NCBI GenBank assembly: GCA_028282685.1
Contig: JANQHK010000059.1
Coordinates: forward strand, 1 to 43,428
Direction of reading: 5' to 3'
Source: Phycisphaeraceae bacterium
Lineage (GTDB): Bacteria; Planctomycetota; Phycisphaerae; Phycisphaerales; Zrk34
DNA length: 43,428 bases
The notes under the pieces were generated by a model. That model was given only the letters and a program-made list of their open reading frames with translations. It did not search any database and had not been told where the DNA came from. This document shows, piece by piece, positions 1,829-34,849 of this stretch. A program made the position numbers and the translations under genes. Numbering within the stretch: the first letter of the stretch is position 1; every line of letters starts with the position of its first letter.

Positions 1829-3265
1829 GTGAAGAAGTTTCTCCTCATTGCCGCCATGCTGATGCTGACCGCCTGTTCGCCGGATGAACAGAGCAAGCAG
1901 CATACCGAGGCCGCCGATCAATTCAAAACCGCGCAAAGCGCGATGGACGCCGCCCTGGGCGGATACATCAATGATGAGAAGTTCCCCGATCAGTTGGCCG
2001 TCGACGCATTCGACACCTTCCGAGAGCAGAAACTACAGGAAGCGGCCGCGATCTTCGAGAAATTGCTGACCAAGGGCGACCCCGAACAACAATTGGCCTG
2101 CGCCACTTCCCTGGCGGAAATTCGCGCGTTCCAGGCCACGGTGGCTACGAACAATGCCATGAACGCCGGCAATGCACTGCTGGGCAAGGGCAACAAGCTT
2201 CTGGCCACGGTGACCGCCACAAGCAATGCCGACACCATGTACAAGGCCATGACCACCGGCAAGGCCCAGAAGGTCCGCGATGCGCTGGCCCAACGGTCGG
2301 TCGCCCTCAAACAACAGCTCGACATCGCCCAGTCCAAGATCAACATGCTTGATCGTCAACTGAATGACCTGCTGACTGACAAAGCCGAGGGGGAGCAGCA
2401 ACGCGTCGCCCTGATGGACAAGTCAGCGAAGATATCCACGACGCTCGGTTCGCTCACCGGCGAAGAGCGTTACCGGATGGCGACCCAGGCCATTCAACTG
2501 CGGAAGCAGGCCGATGAACGCACCGCGGAAATCGAAACGCTGGCCGGGCAGATCGATCTCAAACGTGGCGAACTCAAGGACGCCCGCGATGCCCATGCCA
2601 AGCTGGAAAGCCGTCTGACCGGTGTGAATGAAACGAAGAAGACTCTTGAAATGCATCTGCAGCAGCGCGGCAATGTCGCCACGGCCGCATCCGGCATGAC
2701 CAACGAATACACCGGCTCGCTGACCGGCGCGCTCAACGAGTTAACAGGAAACTACAACACCCGGGTTATTGAGCCGGTGGAACAGGCCATCAAGCAGATG
2801 ACCCAGGCGATTGACGTCTTGAGCAAAGCGCCGCGGTCGTCGAATTTCGATCGCATGCACACCGATTTCAACCTCGCCGCCAAACAAGCCGGCCTGGCTC
2901 ACATCCAGCACCTGCTGGCCACCTCGCTGCACGACTACCAGCAACTGCTGGAGTTGATCACCGGCATGACCAGCGAATCCATCGCCCCGGCCAAACTGAC
3001 GATCATCGGCGAAGCGGCGAAAATGGCCACCGAACGCATCGAAGCCCTCGGCGCCGATCGCACCGAAAACCTGACCAAGGCCTCCGAACTGTTCCTGGCC
3101 GCGGCCGATCAAGCCGATCTGCAGGAGATGCAGGCCGCCTGTTACCAGCAACTGGTCAGCGTGAACCGGATGCTCCTGGAGACCACCGGCGATACCCAGT
3201 GGCAGCAAAAGGTCCAGCAATTTCAGCAGAAACTTGACACGCTGGTCGTCGAAGACGCGGCCTGA
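1829..3265 (+). CDS. coiled-coil lipoprotein of unknown function
   Basis: This 478-aa protein starts at GTG, with AGGG 8 nt upstream. Residues 1-16 form a lipoprotein signal peptide ending in the lipobox LTAC with Cys16. The mature part is almost entirely helical. Long heptad-like stretches occupy about residues 140-300 (rich in Gln, Lys, Glu, Leu), and the rest is Ala/Gln-rich helix that may resemble a TPR-like solenoid. No catalytic motif is visible. It is probably anchored to a membrane facing the periplasm and acts as a scaffold. A clear intrinsic terminator follows 22 nt after the stop, so the gene is probably monocistronic. The function is not recognised. Confidence 0.75.
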
Positions 3266-17791: not shown

Positions 17792-18733
17792 TCAACGCCT
17801 TCTCTTGATTAGCGCCAAGCCGCCGACTGCCAGCAAACTCATGCTCGCAGGTTCAGGGACTTCGGAGGCGACACGGAAACCGAAAATGCTGTTCTCGCCG
17901 CCCGGAGAGTAGTTGAGCCGGTACGACGAGGCGAGGTAGCCGCCGCTGAAGTAGCACGACCCGCCCCGCAGCCCGCGATCGGAACCGGTCCCATAGGCGG
18001 AATCGCTCCACGGGCTTTCCATCCACTCCCAGACGTTGCCCATCATGTCAAACGTGCCGTTGAGTTCCTCGATACCTGACCCGACGTTCCAAGGCTCGTT
18101 CCCGGCGGAGGAAGAGTAGTTCCACTTCGTGGGGTCGGGGGAACCGGAGACCAAGTCAGCAGGGGAAGCATTTGAATAGGTCTGCAGGCTGGTGCCATTC
18201 CAGTACCCCGCCTTGACCCACTCATCTTCGGTCGGCAGGTAGTAGAACGCATCCTTGTGACGGTACAGGTTCGTGCCGTTGTCCGCTTCGGCGGCGCTCC
18301 AAGTGTCCAACGCGTAATCGCTTTGGCCCTGCGTGCCGGTGAACTTGTACGCCGCCTGGTGGCCCGTCGAGGTGTTCAGCCAGTTCACGAACTGCGCCGC
18401 CTCGTACCAGCTCACCTCGTTTGTCGGGACGTTCGTACCGGTGAAGTGCGGGCTCTCGTCGTAGGCGTTGGACGGCGTGCCCGTGACCGGAACGCCCAGC
18501 GAGGCCTTGAACTTGTTCCACTGGTCGTTGGTGATCTCGTAGACGCCGATGCGGTAGTCGTTGTTGACGATGCCATACCCGTTTGCGGGATTGCTTGCCC
18601 CCGAGATCGTCACGAAGTCGATGTCGAACTGATTGCCGCCGGCGCCGAAGCTGTCTGCCGACGCCGCCGAGACCCAAGAGACAGACAAGACGGCCGCGCA
18701 GATCGCGACGCACAAACAAGAAGAGTGGATCAT
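17792..18733 (-). CDS. PEP-CTERM protein with FGE-sulfatase (SUMF1-like) domain
   Basis: The 313-aa exported protein has a signal peptide (about 1-26, SAASA) and one SUMF1/FGE-type fold. Signatures are YEITNDQWNKF, VSWYEAAQFVNWLN, YYLPTEDEWVKAGYW, MMGNVWEWMESPW and RGLRGGSCYFSGG ending in FGFRVAS. The C-terminus is a sorting signal: VPEPAS, a hydrophobic stretch, then KRRR. Exosortase cleaves such tails and attaches or releases the protein at the envelope, so an exosortase must be encoded elsewhere. A formylglycine-generating role is uncertain, since the twin active-site cysteines of true FGE are not both evident. Many homologues are lectin-like. GAAAGAGA lies before the ATG. Confidence 0.9.
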   Translation of the reverse strand: MIHSSCLCVAICAAVLSVSWVSAASADSFGAGGNQFDIDFVTISGASNPANGYGIVNNDYRIGVYEITNDQWNKFKASLGVPVTGTPSNAYDESPHFTGTNVPTNEVSWYEAAQFVNWLNTSTGHQAAYKFTGTQGQSDYALDTWSAAEADNGTNLYRHKDAFYYLPTEDEWVKAGYWNGTSLQTYSNASPADLVSGSPDPTKWNYSSSAGNEPWNVGSGIEELNGTFDMMGNVWEWMESPWSDSAYGTGSDRGLRGGSCYFSGGYLASSYRLNYSPGGENSIFGFRVASEVPEPASMSLLAVGGLALIKRRR

Positions 18734-18839
18734 GGATGAATCTCTTTCCGCCCTCGCCTCATCCCCGCCGATTACCCCGCCACCCCCAAGCCAATGGGCT
18801 TGTGCCAAGACAACGAGCCATAATCGGATAACTTGGTTG

Positions 18840-19320: not shown

Positions 19321-19348
19321 AATCGCCTGCGATTTGCTGTACCCCACC

Positions 19349-20200
<852 letters not shown>

Positions 20201-20208
20201 GGAGTCCC

Positions 20209-21351
20209 ATGAACGCATACGGCGAACACCTCGGCGATACCCAGCCCGTTGTGACCCACGGTGCAAACCGGCTGGAGGGCACGCCGCTGATGAAGTTTTT
20301 CGAGGCGGCGGTCAAATTCAAGGCCTCGGACCTGCTGATCAAGCCCGGGCTGGCGCCGAAGCTTCGTCTGCGCGGCGAGCTGAAGGATGTGGAATCCAAA
20401 CCATTCACTGCTGAGCAACTGGAAGAGATGGTCCAGCAGTTTCTCACCGACGATCAGATGGCGCATTACCGCATCCACGGCTCGTACGACCTGGCATGCG
20501 AACTCGGCAGCGACAATCGCTTTCGCGTCAACGTTTATCGCGCGTGCGGACATTCGTTGATCTCCGCCCGGCGCGTCAGCAGCGAGATTCTCAGTTACGC
20601 CGATCTGCATTTGCCGCCGGTGCTCAGCCGGATCACCGAGACGCATCAGGGATTGGTGCTGGTCTGCGGAATCACCGGCAGCGGCAAGAGCACAACGATC
20701 GCCTCGATGCTCCAGGAGATCAACGAACAACGCCGCTGCCACATCGTGACCATCGAAGATCCGATTGAATACCTCTTCAAAGACGCCAAGGCGGTGGTCA
20801 GCCAGCGCGAAATCGGCGTGGACGTGCCCGACTTCAACACGGCACTGCGATCCCTGGTGCGTGAAAATCCGGACGTGGTGCTGATCGGCGAATTGCGCGA
20901 TCACGAATCCTTCGAGGCGGCGCTGCGTGCCGCGGAAACCGGACACCTCGTGTTCGGCACCATCCACGCTTCCAGTGCATCGCAGGCATTCGGCCGCATC
21001 TACAATCTGTTCCCCCCCGATCAGCGCGACTTGATCCGCGACATGCTGGCGAAAACCCTGCGGGCGATTGTTTATCAGAAATTGTTACCCGCGTTGCCCG
21101 AAGCGATCGATCGCATCCCCGCCGTGGAGATCCTGCGGAACAACCCCGTGGTCAGTAAATACATCCTCGAACAGCGGGAAGTGGAGTTGGGCGATGTCAT
21201 CCGCAGCAGCGTGCAGGAAGGCATGATCGACTTTGCCGGTTCCCTTGTCGATCTGGTGAAGAAAGAGTACATTCATTCCCGAACGGCGGTGGAAAACGCC
21301 CACAATGTCGACGAGTTGAAGATGCGTCTGAAAGGCATTTCCACCTCCTGA
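20209..21351 (+). CDS. pilT: PilT-type retraction ATPase
   Basis: This 380-aa cytoplasmic ATPase belongs to the PilT branch of the secretion/type IV pilus ATPases. The N-terminal domain (about 25-140) carries FKASDLLIKPG. The motor has Walker A GITGSGKS (154-161), the Asp box EDPIEY (183-188), Walker B VVLIGELRD (223-231) and the His box TGHLVFGTIHASS (244-256), all intact. It lacks the C-terminal tetra-cysteine zinc region of GspE/PilB, in keeping with PilT. AAGGAG lies 5 nt before the ATG. It follows hisF by 8 nt and precedes a degenerate relative by 35 nt. No pilin genes are in the window. Confidence 0.92.
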   Translation: MNAYGEHLGDTQPVVTHGANRLEGTPLMKFFEAAVKFKASDLLIKPGLAPKLRLRGELKDVESKPFTAEQLEEMVQQFLTDDQMAHYRIHGSYDLACELGSDNRFRVNVYRACGHSLISARRVSSEILSYADLHLPPVLSRITETHQGLVLVCGITGSGKSTTIASMLQEINEQRRCHIVTIEDPIEYLFKDAKAVVSQREIGVDVPDFNTALRSLVRENPDVVLIGELRDHESFEAALRAAETGHLVFGTIHASSASQAFGRIYNLFPPDQRDLIRDMLAKTLRAIVYQKLLPALPEAIDRIPAVEILRNNPVVSKYILEQREVELGDVIRSSVQEGMIDFAGSLVDLVKKEYIHSRTAVENAHNVDELKMRLKGISTS

Positions 21352-21386
21352 GATGACGCCCTGCCCGGCCTCGCTCCGAGTCCCCG

Positions 21387-23012
21387 ATGATGCCGTACAC
21401 ATCCATCAACGCCGTGATCCTGGTGAGCTTATTCAAACCGGTCCTGATGATTGCCGTGCTGCTGCTGTGGGGACGCTGGGCGACGTACCTGGATAAAGAA
21501 GCCGAATACTACTACATGCCCCGCACGGCGCTGAACCTGGCGCAGGCGGGAGCGGCGCTGGCCGCTTTCACGGCCTGGCTGCTGATTCCGATCTTCTGGC
21601 TGGGGCTGCCGGTCGCGCTGGGAATCCTCATCGCCGCCGGCGTGGTCTTCGCCGTCCTGCGCAATGCGAAAGTGCCGGCCGAAGCGCGCTGGGATATGTC
21701 ACTGGGATTCCTGCGGGAGATGCTGCAGGCACGACGACAGGCCGTGGCAGCCAAGGATGCCCGAATGCGCTTCGTCAGCAAAGGGGTATACAGTGAAATT
21801 CCCCTGGCCGATCAACCCGAATACGCAGCGCACATGGCCATGGAAACGGTGCTCGTTCCGGCGTTTGAGCGCGGGGCGCAGCGCGTGGTGGTGCAACTGG
21901 CCGGTCAGCAGGCCGTCATCCAGCACGAAGTCGATGCCGTGAACTACAAGCACGATCCGCCGGCCCCCCAGGAAGCACTGGCCATGATCAAGTATCTCCA
22001 GGCCAACGCCGGCATGGACAACCAGGACCTGCGCCGCAAACAGATCGGCCAATGTCGCATCGAGGCGAAGGACATCGCCGGGCACGATCTGCTGATCACC
22101 ACGTCCGGATCGACACGCAACGTGCAGATGACCATCGACTTCGACCTCGAAAAACAACTGAAGTTCGACCTCGATCAACTGGGTCTGCTGCCCGCTCAGA
22201 TCGAGCCGCTTCAGGGCGTCCTGCACAGCGAAGAGCGCGTGGTGTTGGTGGCCTGCCCGCCGCGCAGCGGTCGCACCACGGCGCTCTACACCCTGCTGCG
22301 GCAGCACGATCCGTACATGCTCGACATCCACACCATTGAAAAACGCGTCGAGTTGCAGCTCAACGGGGTCAGCCAGCACGAACTGGAAGACCGCCCGATG
22401 GGCAAGACGTTGCACTCGTTGTTCCTGCGCGATCCGAAAGTGGTGATGGTTTCCCACATTGCCGACAAGGAAACGCCGGGCGTGATCGCCAAGGCCGCCG
22501 CCGACCAGCGCCGCGTTTACGTCGGCATACCCGGCGCAGACACGATGACCGCCCTGCGCGCCTGGGCGAAATCGCTGGGCGATCTGAAACAGGCCGGCGA
22601 CAGTCTGGCGGCCATCATCAGCCCGCGCCTGGTCCGCAAACTCTGCCCCGCCTGTAAGCAGGCCTACCAGCCCGATGCGGCGGCGCTGAAAAAACTCAAC
22701 CTCCCCGCCGACCGTATCCGTGAACTCTACAAGGCCTCCGGCTCGATCACCGTAGAAGACAAGTCCCAGCCGTGCGAAATGTGCCACGGGTTGGGATACC
22801 GCGGACTGGCAGGCGTGTACGAGGTGATGATCTTTGATGATGCCGCGCGGGAATTTCTGGCCCAGGATGCGCTGGTCCCGTTGCGGAATCATTTGCGTAA
22901 GAACAAGATGCTCCTTCACCAGGAAGTCGCGCTGGCCAAGGTCGTCGAAGGCCTGACCAGCATCAGCGAAGTCATGCGTGTCCTGAGCGGACCCGGCGGA
23001 GCCAAGTCATGA
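21387..23012 (+). CDS. membrane-anchored GspE/PilB-like pseudo-ATPase
   Basis: The 541-aa protein begins with three hydrophobic segments (about 8-28, 50-70, 72-92), unlike soluble GspE/PilB. The rest aligns by plan with GspE, but the active elements are degraded. The P-loop reads CPPRSGRTT (290-298) with Arg for Lys and without its first Gly. The Asp box is TIEKR (317-321). The Walker B region is VVMVSHIADKE (352-362), lacking the catalytic Glu, and the His box position reads RVYVGIPGADT (376-386) with no His. The C-terminal zinc tetrad C420, C423, C463, C466 is kept. It probably acts as a structural partner, not an active motor (inference). Its stop overlaps the next start (ATGA). Confidence 0.75.
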   Translation: MMPYTSINAVILVSLFKPVLMIAVLLLWGRWATYLDKEAEYYYMPRTALNLAQAGAALAAFTAWLLIPIFWLGLPVALGILIAAGVVFAVLRNAKVPAEARWDMSLGFLREMLQARRQAVAAKDARMRFVSKGVYSEIPLADQPEYAAHMAMETVLVPAFERGAQRVVVQLAGQQAVIQHEVDAVNYKHDPPAPQEALAMIKYLQANAGMDNQDLRRKQIGQCRIEAKDIAGHDLLITTSGSTRNVQMTIDFDLEKQLKFDLDQLGLLPAQIEPLQGVLHSEERVVLVACPPRSGRTTALYTLLRQHDPYMLDIHTIEKRVELQLNGVSQHELEDRPMGKTLHSLFLRDPKVVMVSHIADKETPGVIAKAAADQRRVYVGIPGADTMTALRAWAKSLGDLKQAGDSLAAIISPRLVRKLCPACKQAYQPDAAALKKLNLPADRIRELYKASGSITVEDKSQPCEMCHGLGYRGLAGVYEVMIFDDAAREFLAQDALVPLRNHLRKNKMLLHQEVALAKVVEGLTSISEVMRVLSGPGGAKS

Positions 23013-24649
23013 TCATCAACATTGTGCTGCTGGTGTTCGTGTTGGCCATGACCTACATCTGGTCGATGCAGGGACTGTTCAGCGCGTTGCTTCATCTGAT
23101 CCTGACGATTCTGGCCGGGCTGCTTGCCCTGGCGGTGTGGGAGCCGCTGGTGTTGGGATTGCTGATCGACCGCATGCCCGAGTATGCCTGGGGCGTGGGC
23201 TTGATCGTACCGTTCCTGCTGATTCTGTTGGCGTTGCGCATCGCTTTCGATCGACTGGTCGCGGGGAACGTGCAATGCGTCCAGATCGTCAACGTGATCG
23301 GCGGCGGCGCGCTGGGCCTGATCAGCGGCGTGCTCAGCGGCGGACTGATCGTCATCGCCCTGCTGTTCATCGGCCCGATGCCCTTGGGCTACCAACCGCT
23401 GGAAACGCAGGAAGACGGCACGGCAGAACGCAGCCAGTCGTTATGGATCCCCGCCGACCGCATCGCTGGCTCGTTCTTCACCCTGCTCAGCGACAACGCC
23501 CTCTCCCCTTGGTCGGGCAACTCGATCGGCGCGTATCGCGGTTCGCTGCATGATTCAGCCGCACGCTTCGCCTTGGCCTCACGCCCCGGCGCACGCCATG
23601 CCATTCAACCCGACCAACTTAAAGCGGAATGGGCACAGGTTCCCCCGAAAGACTCACCGCTTCCCAACGACCGACAGCCCGGCGCAAACCAGAAAGTCTT
23701 GATCGTCTCCATGACAGTGACGCAAGGAGCGTTTGATCCGGACGGCGTGTTCACCGTCTTCCCCGCGCAGGTGGCGCTGGGATACCGGCCGAACGGGGGC
23801 CGCGATGATATCGTGCGCGATCATCCGGTGTGGTACATCCAGCGCAACGCCTTCGGCGATTACAAAACCAAACCGTACGTCAGTTCCAAGGCCGGCGTGA
23901 TGGAAGAAACCATCCGCTGGGCCTTTGCCGTTCACGTCGACGCCGTACCGGAGTATCTGTCGGTCAAGGGCACGCGCGTGCAACTGTCCAGCGAGCCGGT
24001 CGATTACGTTCCGTACCTGCAAGGCCTTGCGAACGAGACTCCCGATGCAGGCATCGCCGCGGAGCAGGCCGCCCCCGCCCCCGTGGCCCCGCCGGATCAA
24101 GGCCCGGTGACGGCCGAGGGCATGTCGGCGAAGGTGACGGACGGACTGGACGGAATCATCAACGCCAACGATCTGTCCATGGCCGGCGGTTCTACCACCA
24201 CCAATCCACGCGGCCAGACCGTCATCAACAACTTCGACGGCGTGGTCCGTTACGCCGGAAAATCCAACCTCGCGGACAACCTTCAGATTCGGGGATTGGC
24301 GCACTCGGCAGAAACCGCCATCGTGCAGGTGCGGATGAAGATCAACAAATTCCAGCACACGCTGCCCAAGATCATGGCCGAAGCCGCGTCGCTCAACCCA
24401 CCGCAGCTGCTCGACACCGAGGGCGACGTCTATTCTCCGATCGGTTTTTCCGTTACTCAGGGCGCCGAACTGCGCATGCGATACCGGCCCACCCAACCGA
24501 TCCTGCGCTTGGCGGAAATCGATCTGAGCCCCTATTCCGATCAGACCGAGCTGGTGTTGTATTTCCGCGTCCCGCGCGGCGTGACGATCATGCAGTACCG
24601 TCTCGGCAACGCCGGCGCACAGGCCCTGAACCTGGCAGTGCCGAAATAA
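23009..24649 (+). CDS. CvpA-like membrane protein with large extracytoplasmic domain
   Basis: The 546-aa protein opens with four hydrophobic helices (about 1-125), with the Gly-rich GGGALGLISGVLSGGLIV typical of CvpA/colicin V production family proteins. A soluble region of about 410 residues follows and should face the periplasm. It has beta-rich stretches, an Ala/Pro-rich linker near 345-365, and late conserved-looking segments (YSPIGFSVTQG, LRMRYRP, LVLYFRVPRGV). The ATG is in an ATGA overlap with the pseudo-ATPase gene, which implies coupled production. The soluble part resembles no family I can name. The set may form an envelope complex with PilT. Confidence 0.65.
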   Translation: MIINIVLLVFVLAMTYIWSMQGLFSALLHLILTILAGLLALAVWEPLVLGLLIDRMPEYAWGVGLIVPFLLILLALRIAFDRLVAGNVQCVQIVNVIGGGALGLISGVLSGGLIVIALLFIGPMPLGYQPLETQEDGTAERSQSLWIPADRIAGSFFTLLSDNALSPWSGNSIGAYRGSLHDSAARFALASRPGARHAIQPDQLKAEWAQVPPKDSPLPNDRQPGANQKVLIVSMTVTQGAFDPDGVFTVFPAQVALGYRPNGGRDDIVRDHPVWYIQRNAFGDYKTKPYVSSKAGVMEETIRWAFAVHVDAVPEYLSVKGTRVQLSSEPVDYVPYLQGLANETPDAGIAAEQAAPAPVAPPDQGPVTAEGMSAKVTDGLDGIINANDLSMAGGSTTTNPRGQTVINNFDGVVRYAGKSNLADNLQIRGLAHSAETAIVQVRMKINKFQHTLPKIMAEAASLNPPQLLDTEGDVYSPIGFSVTQGAELRMRYRPTQPILRLAEIDLSPYSDQTELVLYFRVPRGVTIMQYRLGNAGAQALNLAVPK

Positions 24650-32827: not shown

Positions 32828-32952
32828 CCACGGAGAGCACAGAGAACACAGAGATAATACAGAATAATTTTTGACAGGATCAACTTGATGATTATTCATC
32901 CAGACTATCCTGTTCATCCTGTCAAAATTCTTCTCTGTGGCCCTCTGCGGTT
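32828..32952. repeat. nested palindrome containing the mnmG stop codon
   Basis: Outer arms (ACCACGGAGAGCACAGAGAA against the complement of the CTGTGGCCCTCTGCGGTTA end) enclose a perfect TTTTGACAGGAT/ATCCTGTCAAAA stem at 32869-32880 and 32916-32927. The right end runs into TTAACCGC, whose complement holds the TAA stop of mnmG (32951-32953). No gene lies in 32786-32950. Confidence 0.6.
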
Positions 32953-34801
32953 AATCCGACCGTTTGCCCATGGAGATCGCCAGCACGGTCAAATCCGCGG
33001 GGGTGATGCCGGCGAGGCGGGCCGCCTGGCCGAACGTCGCCGGGCGGAACTTGCCCAGCACGTGGCGGGCTTCGTTGCGCAGGCCGCCGACCTGCGCATA
33101 ATCGCAATCGGTCGGCAGCGTGCGGTGCTCCATCTTCATCACGCGCTCGTGCTGACGGCGGTGGCGATCGATGAACCCGGAATATTTCACCTCGGCCAGC
33201 AACGCCGCGATCAGAAATTGATCGTGCGGGACCGGACCGCCGTTCAACCGTTCCAGCACATCGCGTTCGCAGACTTGCGGGCGCTTCATCCACTGCCAGA
33301 GTTTGGTTCCGTCGATGCTGTGGGCCTGAAGGTAATCGGTCAGCGTTCGCAGGTCGCGCTGCCGTTGCTCGTATGCAGCCCAGCGCTCGTCATCGACCAG
33401 CCCCAGGTCATGCGCCCACGGCGTCAACCGCTCGATCGCATTATCCGCCCGCAGCATCAACCGATGTTCGGCCCGGCTGGTGAACATGCGATACGGCTCG
33501 CGCGGCGTCTTGGTCACCAGGTCGTCCATCAACACACCCAGATACGACTGGTCGCGTCGATGACGGACCAGAGCTTCACCCCGTTCGTACAGCACGGCAT
33601 TCACCGCGGCGAGCAGACCCTGTCCCGCCGCCTCCTCGTAACCGCTGGTGCCGTTGATCTGGCCGGCAAGGAACAGCCCCGGGATGCGCTTGGTCATGCC
33701 GGTGGCGTCGATCTGGTGCGGCCAGACCATGTCGTACTCCACCGCGTAACCGTAACGCAGAATTTTCGCGCGCTCGCAGCCGGGCAGACCGCCCACCATC
33801 GCATCCTGCACGTCGGCCGGCAGCGACGTGGGAATGCCGTTGCAGTACAACTCGTCGCTTTCCAGCGATTCGGGTTCGAGAAAAACGTGGTGCGCGGACT
33901 TGTCGGCGAAGCGAACCACCTTGTCTTCAATGCTCGGGCAATACCGCGGACCGCAATCGGCCTCGATCTGACCGTTGTACATCGGGGCGCGATCGAGATT
34001 GGCGCGGATCGCCTCGTGAATGCGCTCGTTGGTGTGTGTGATCCAGCACGGCTTCTGTTCGAGAACCGGAAAACGGGCCAGATCGGTCATCGCACTGAAC
34101 GGCCGAGGCGGATCGTCGCCCGGTTGCCGTTGCATCCCGCTCAGGTCAACGGTGCGAATATCCAGCCGCGGGGGTGTGCCGGTTTTGAGTCGGCCGAGTT
34201 CAAAACCGAGTCGGATGAGATTGGCGCTGATGCCGACGGCCGGTTCTTCACCGACGCGCCCGCCTTCGGTGCGGCGCTCGCCGGTATGCATCAGACCGCG
34301 CATGAAGGTGCCGGTGGTCAGCACCACCGCCGGGGCCGGCAGCGCGCGACGTTCTCCGGTGGCGGCGCAGGTGTATTTCACGCCGGCGCATCGGCCGTTC
34401 TCGACGAGGATTTGCTCCACGGAACCTTCGAGCAGGTCCAGGTTCGGCCGGGTTTCCAGCAGGGAGCGGACCTTGCGGGCGTAAGCGTACTTGTCTGCCT
34501 GGGCGCGGGGCCCGCGCACCGCCGGACCTTTGGAGCGATTGAGCAGGCGAAACTGGATGCCCGTGTCATCAATGGCCAGCCCCATCAACCCGCCCATCGC
34601 ATCGATTTCACAGACCATCTGGCCCTTGGCCAACCCGCCGATGGCCGGATTGCAGGACATCTGGCCGATCGTATTGCGGCGCATGGTGATCAGGGCGACG
34701 CGCCGTTGCGAGGGCGCAAGCATATTCGCCGCCGCCCAGGCCGCCTCGGCCCCGGCGTGGCCGGCCCCAACCACCACGAGGGTGTACGTTTCGTCGCTCA
34801 T
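32951..34801 (-). CDS. mnmG: tRNA uridine-5-carboxymethylaminomethyl modification enzyme MnmG (GidA)
   Basis: With MnmE (not in the window), MnmG adds the carboxymethylaminomethyl group to U34 of several tRNAs, using FAD and NADH. The 616-aa protein has the FAD-binding GAGHAGAEAA (12-21), the signature SCNPAIGGLAKG, GPRAQADK and the long conserved GLFLAGQINGTSGYEEAAGQG. PRYCPSIEDK carries the conserved Cys. The C-terminal helical MnmE-binding region is full length. ATG 34801 is chosen because a TATAAT ends 9 nt upstream and a longer in-frame start would lie in the promoter. Its stop codon lies in a repeat. Confidence 0.96.
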   Translation of the reverse strand: MSDETYTLVVVGAGHAGAEAAWAAANMLAPSQRRVALITMRRNTIGQMSCNPAIGGLAKGQMVCEIDAMGGLMGLAIDDTGIQFRLLNRSKGPAVRGPRAQADKYAYARKVRSLLETRPNLDLLEGSVEQILVENGRCAGVKYTCAATGERRALPAPAVVLTTGTFMRGLMHTGERRTEGGRVGEEPAVGISANLIRLGFELGRLKTGTPPRLDIRTVDLSGMQRQPGDDPPRPFSAMTDLARFPVLEQKPCWITHTNERIHEAIRANLDRAPMYNGQIEADCGPRYCPSIEDKVVRFADKSAHHVFLEPESLESDELYCNGIPTSLPADVQDAMVGGLPGCERAKILRYGYAVEYDMVWPHQIDATGMTKRIPGLFLAGQINGTSGYEEAAGQGLLAAVNAVLYERGEALVRHRRDQSYLGVLMDDLVTKTPREPYRMFTSRAEHRLMLRADNAIERLTPWAHDLGLVDDERWAAYEQRQRDLRTLTDYLQAHSIDGTKLWQWMKRPQVCERDVLERLNGGPVPHDQFLIAALLAEVKYSGFIDRHRRQHERVMKMEHRTLPTDCDYAQVGGLRNEARHVLGKFRPATFGQAARLAGITPADLTVLAISMGKRSD

Positions 34802-34810
34802 CCGGTCGGC

Positions 34811-34816
34811 ATTATA
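34811..34816 (-). promoter_or_regulatory. TATAAT 9 nt before mnmG
   Basis: The perfect -10 hexamer ends 9 nt before the ATG and the same 9-nt spacing is seen at the aminopeptidase gene. No Shine-Dalgarno sequence is present. The promoter is divergent from the fusA promoter about 34 bp away. Confidence 0.5.
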
Positions 34817-34849
34817 GTTTGCAAATTGTGTTAGCAAAGCAGTTTCTAC

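Follow-up and report, generated by a model that had tools for sequence, protein, structure and literature searches.

Three co-directional genes on the forward strand of a 43,428-nucleotide stretch of DNA (the window), a contig from a planctomycete genome of 2.9 Mb, may together encode a single inner-membrane device, in which a membrane-anchored, non-hydrolysing scaffold of the PilB type would dock an active PilT ATPase and cooperate with a CvpA-like protein. The probability of this reading is put at roughly 0.4. The genes code for a PilT of 380 aa (20209-21351), a PilB/GspE-like pseudo-ATPase of 541 aa (21387-23012) and a CvpA-like protein of 546 aa (23009-24649). The first two are separated by 35 bases, and the third, as the original prediction had it, is coupled to the second by ATGA, its start at 23009 lying inside the end of the preceding gene. 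The case for the device is made by the conserved gene order, the loss of catalytic residues from the second protein, the purifying selection on its gene, the intact motifs of the PilT and its placement in a clade of its own, together with a predicted membrane anchor.

The cassette is widespread among the relatives of this bacterium. An orthologue of the pseudo-ATPase is present in 58 of 60 genomes of the family and order and is of full length unless the contig stops short; the other two are fragmentary genomes of the family, which give paralogue-level matches only. Across the class, the best match reaches E <= 1e-99 in 187 of 198 sampled genomes (counted from the table of matches), a threshold that sets orthologues apart, the soluble PilB paralogues reaching about 1e-83 at best. 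A survey of the genome neighbourhoods found the three genes in unbroken order in all order-level loci of sufficient length, with pilT upstream in 55/55 and the cvpA-like gene downstream in 57/57; a further three loci for pilT and one for the cvpA-like gene are cut off by a contig edge. The other orders of the class contributed 20 loci, in which the genes of the pseudo-ATPase and the CvpA-like protein are always adjacent (20/20) and pilT adjoins them in 15/20. Families in which pilT is unlinked are f19, f11 and f21, to which one f8 genome is added. The tie of pilT to the cassette is therefore looser than that between the other two genes.

No further widely conserved neighbour was found in about 97 loci surveyed, the next most frequent being hisF (15) and murD (13), nor was a conserved PilC-type platform, pilin or secretin gene found within about 5-9 kb of these loci. 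The hisF gene of the window (19334-20200, forward strand) is regarded as an upstream neighbour outside the module, and the order hisF-pilT-pseudo-ATPase is seen again in other families, including one that lies outside the class. In many genomes of family f6 (for example L056-L069) a gene identified by eye as murD lies 3' of the cassette. The cassette as a whole suggests an undescribed inner-membrane machine in this little-studied class of planctomycetes.

The body of the second protein has the GspE plan that had been predicted for it. In a profile search against the GspE, PilB and PilT families it matches Pfam T2SSE (PF00437) at 1.8e-35, with 122.7 bits against a cut-off of 24.9; its sequence relatives in the PDB are GspE and PilB proteins at about 1e-30, and Foldseek aligns its model with PilB (5tsh) at 1.3e-33. 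The scores fall below the equivalog cut-offs (140 bits against 630 for GspE, 134 against 676 for PilB). The zinc cysteines expected to be kept are all present, Cys420 and Cys423 (22644-22655) being found in 75/79 class orthologues and Cys463 and Cys466 (22773-22784) in 79/79 and 75/79, and the tetracysteine is complete in 75/79. In four loci of one genus of family f2 (L097, L102, L103 and L105) three of the four cysteines are gone as well.

The predicted losses of the Lys of Walker A, the Asp of the Asp box, the Glu of Walker B and the His of the His box are seen in the window protein, and alignment of the four motifs extends the loss through the class. The Walker A motif (residues 290-297, CPPRSGRT, 22254-22277; the window protein reads CPPRSGRTT) carries Arg in place of Lys. 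Lys occurs here in 0/79 orthologues, the position being occupied by R (29/79), L, V, T, I, M, Q, S, G or A. The Asp box (residues 318-319, 22338-22343) reads EK for ED, with E318 kept in 77/79 and D319 in 5/79. In the Walker B region (residues 350-360, 22434-22466) Gly356 and Glu357 are replaced by Ser and His (SH for GE); the orthologues have Glu in 26/79 and Asp in 23/79, and Arg359 is retained in 1/79. The His box (residues 375-382, 22509-22532) has Arg at 375 and Pro at 382, His being found at these positions in 2/79 and 0/79. A different set of residues is retained, namely Gly295, Arg417, Gly522 and Glu528 in all 79 orthologues, Arg216 in 78 and Glu318 in 77. Judged by these counts, the class pseudo-ATPases have lost the residues for nucleotide binding and hydrolysis and have kept the structural ones. 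According to McCallum and colleagues (PMC5424180), conservation is complete in the PilT/VirB11-like family for the Walker motifs, two arginine fingers, the catalytic Glu and the Asp-box Glu. The class clade departs from this rule: the Walker A Lys is always missing and, in most members, so are the catalytic Glu and the arginine fingers, which leaves the Asp-box Glu as the one retained residue of the list.

A gene without catalytic motifs might be a decaying one that is retained through hitch-hiking. This explanation is refuted by several observations and has practically no chance of being correct. The reading frame is open in all complete order-level orthologues, 14 columns are invariant across 48 sequences, and the gene is present throughout the class. 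In congeneric pairs with usable dS, dN/dS is about 0.05-0.09; the ratios reach 0.46 in other pairs, which are less informative owing to saturated dS or low apparent dS. The gene is under purifying selection and is not a recent pseudogene, and the membrane-anchored pseudo-ATPase of the original prediction proves to be a conserved protein of the class, linked to pilT and cvpA.

It is also conceivable, if rather improbable, that the pseudo-ATPase senses a nucleotide or a metal, and that its altered P-loop binds a ligand without hydrolysing it and signals to the CvpA-like protein. The invariant P-loop Gly295, the replacement of the Lys by Arg or another residue and the retained zinc knuckle would agree with such a role, but the former Lys position is free to vary and the arginines of the N2 domain are lost. 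Compared with a set of 33 active proteins, where these arginines are invariant or nearly so, the 79 orthologues retain R179 in 2, R181 in 13, R236 in 25 and R251 in 4. Neither R236 nor R251, both invariant in the active set, is retained in the window protein; by counting, these two positions are taken to correspond to R210 and R225 of EpsE. With a variable Lys position and lost N2 arginines, an empty site fits better than a new site that has been selected for.

The same arginines bear on the proposal that PilT and the pseudo-ATPase alternate within one mixed hexamer. The two proteins are members of one ATPase superfamily, and a single operon encodes both. A mixed ring is nevertheless very unlikely, because the arginine-finger positions, which act on the neighbour's site (R236, R251 and R179), are lost in most of the pseudo-ATPases. 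PilT and PilB/GspE are, moreover, distinct branches, and PilT and PilU of V. cholerae are reported to form separate homohexamers (PMC6821130). This part of the original prediction is not borne out.

The single-chain AlphaFold2 model of the pseudo-ATPase (pLDDT 93.5) and hydropathy place three predicted transmembrane helices at residues 16-41, 46-66 and 70-95 (21432-21671), followed in the model by a cytoplasmic linker and then the PilB-like body. As some anchored sister proteins start with a signal-peptide-like stretch, the anchor would probably run N-out through three passes, leaving the body in the cytoplasm. Compared with the PilB/GspE extension ATPases, the protein is alike in its body fold, zinc tetracysteine and Asp-box Glu; it differs in lacking the Walker A Lys, the His-box His and the Asp-box Asp, in carrying three membrane helices in place of the soluble N1 domain, and in having no conserved PilC, pilin or secretin gene at its locus.

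Outside the class, an anchored protein is found in a minority of the sampled genomes (19/229, counted from the table). Its catalytic residues are intact in families f49, f56 and f70 and dead in f90 and f99. The active sisters share the layout of the class protein and adjoin pilT and/or a CvpA-like gene; they differ in their intact motifs (GPTGAGKST, ED, GEIRD and TGHMVFSTVHA) and in a short CvpA-like protein, which in the sister families has 185-251 aa. This active anchored form of the module, with pilT and/or CvpA-like genes beside it, is seen in other planctomycete families at loci L153-L163, L165 and L168-L170. Membrane helices are predicted in 15/15 active anchored proteins and in 0/18 soluble PilBs, so that the anchor is most simply taken to be older than the loss of catalysis. 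The three N-terminal helices had been predicted correctly, but not their gain along with the loss of the motifs. Homologues with intact catalysis exist only outside the class, and they date the loss rather than argue against it.

In the tree, a branch with support of 100/100 separates the class pseudo-ATPases from the remaining sequences. The dead f90 and f99 proteins can be placed together with the class clade on one side of a branch, as a single loss of catalysis rather than two would have it, but the support for this is only 60/25. In f90 the order is hisF, pilT, the pseudo-ATPase and a small membrane protein judged by eye to be CvpA-like. This is the order of the window, which suggests that the arrangement is old. 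In one f8 genome (L136:3387-5102) an FHA-type PilB with intact motifs, its FHA domain recognized by eye, lies between pilT and the pseudo-ATPase gene. A tandem duplication into an active and a dead copy was considered for this locus and rejected, the active ATPase being a soluble FHA-type PilB and not an anchored sister.

The first protein of the cassette is a member of the PilT/PilU family (TIGR01420, 366.6 bits against a cut-off of 319.1). An alignment of 32 orthologues shows no variation in the Walker A, Walker B, Asp-box and His-box motifs, by which the protein is catalytically intact. The cassette PilTs form their own clade (support 100/98) relative to the PilTs that adjoin pilB/pilC in the same genomes; two rows of the tree labelled 'other' are f49 copies located about 10 kb from their cassette and not adjacent to it. 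The AIRNLIRE signature, described as needed for retraction (PMC6153414), has been replaced in the cassette PilTs by a different conserved motif of the VRKYILEGRE type. Its R is kept in 2/83 and its N in 2/83, in contrast to the pilus PilTs of the same genomes, most of which retain them (R 16/19, N 12/19).

These properties bear on the main rival to the device, according to which the cassette regulates ordinary type IV pili encoded elsewhere. The pseudo-ATPase, held in the membrane, would then act as a decoy for PilC, PilM, PilB or PilT, and it would park or release the cassette PilT, which would serve as an additional motor for retraction. The parts for such pili are at hand: PilC-type proteins were found in 48/48 and secretins in 21/21 genomes tested, PilM genes also lie elsewhere in these genomes, there are several PilTs per genome, and PilT is by family a retraction motor. 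The separate clade of the cassette PilT, the loss of its AIRNLIRE signature and the lack of a conserved pilus gene near the cassette all count against regulation of this kind, which is considered unlikely, though well ahead of a sensor.

The third protein was predicted to join a CvpA-like membrane unit to a large extracytoplasmic domain, and its AlphaFold2 model (pLDDT 90.2), likewise of a single chain, agrees with this: four helices lie in the membrane, and the ectodomain comprises about 415 residues. The four-helix unit occupies residues 1-123 (23009-23377), and the predicted periplasmic, beta-rich ectodomain extends from about residue 130 to 546 (23396-24646). The match of the window protein to PF02674 (Colicin_V) is below the cut-off (16.3 bits against 29.3), but it is the only match to this family in the genome, and 43/48 orthologues match at E <= 0.1, the best at 1e-7. 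The four-helix core of CvpA is common to most orthologues, to which the third protein adds the ectodomain. The ectodomain has no Foldseek match at E <= 0.001 and no clear match in the PDB, where the protein as a whole has no sequence relative. Assignment of the ectodomain to a known fold by VIA-align 2 was abandoned; the best Z was 5.8, with beta-sandwich rows at a common level, and could not be used. MarP-type proteins are fusions of CvpA and a protease; no protease domain was found in the third protein.

By combining these observations, it is possible to describe how the three proteins might work as one inner-membrane device. The pseudo-ATPase would build a non-hydrolysing scaffold, probably a ring of its own, substituting for the PilC-type platform that is absent from the locus. 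This scaffold may hold the PilT ring at the membrane, and the active PilT would supply ATP-driven motion. The CvpA-like protein with its periplasmic arm could then be the element that is moved or gated. The dead scaffold can be likened to a catalytically dead PilT that still supports PilU: in V. cholerae, PilU-driven retraction is still supported when PilT carries a Walker mutation (PMC6821130, PMC6762196). The PilT/PilU pair of type IVa pili may be regarded as the closest precedent for the proposed device, one active ring cooperating with one that is catalytically dispensable. Both partners of that pair are soluble relatives of PilT and the dead state was engineered, while the dead partner in the cassette is natural, PilB-like and membrane-anchored.

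In the sister families the anchored protein exists in an active version, and a dead ring is therefore unnecessary for the device in general, which counts against the proposal. A more specific form of it, in which PilT drives the dead anchored ring to work the CvpA-like protein as an envelope motor free of any filament, is tentative and rather doubtful. If true, it would mean that a branch of the pilus-motor family has left filament assembly and that an extension ATPase has been turned into a stator. The class-wide dead anchored protein, with active sisters beside it, also represents a natural experiment on a PilB-type ring without hydrolysis.

All the parts of the cassette come from known families. 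Neither the joining of the three genes in one unit nor the dead anchored protein is described in the literature found, the search having turned up no description of a PilT-CvpA cassette or of a natural PilB pseudo-ATPase. A Tn-seq study of gene essentiality in Planctopirus limnophila (PMC10632474) names Plim_0410-0401, an operon whose genes resemble those of type II secretion. It was considered as a possible cassette and set aside, since that description is nearer to the PilB-PilT-PilB cluster of locus L177 (G447). A cluster of this type, with a PilC-type (T2SSF) gene nearby and resembling Plim_0410-0401 as described there, is also found at L174 (G000:C108).

Elsewhere in the window, three long ORFs on the forward strand (378-1619, 1829-3265 and 32885-34834) have no Pfam match at 1e-5. 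A gene on the reverse strand (17792-18808) encodes a protein with a sulfatase-modifying-factor (FGE) domain, the C-terminus of which, VPEPASMSLLAVGGLALIKRRR, resembles a PEP-CTERM sorting signal.
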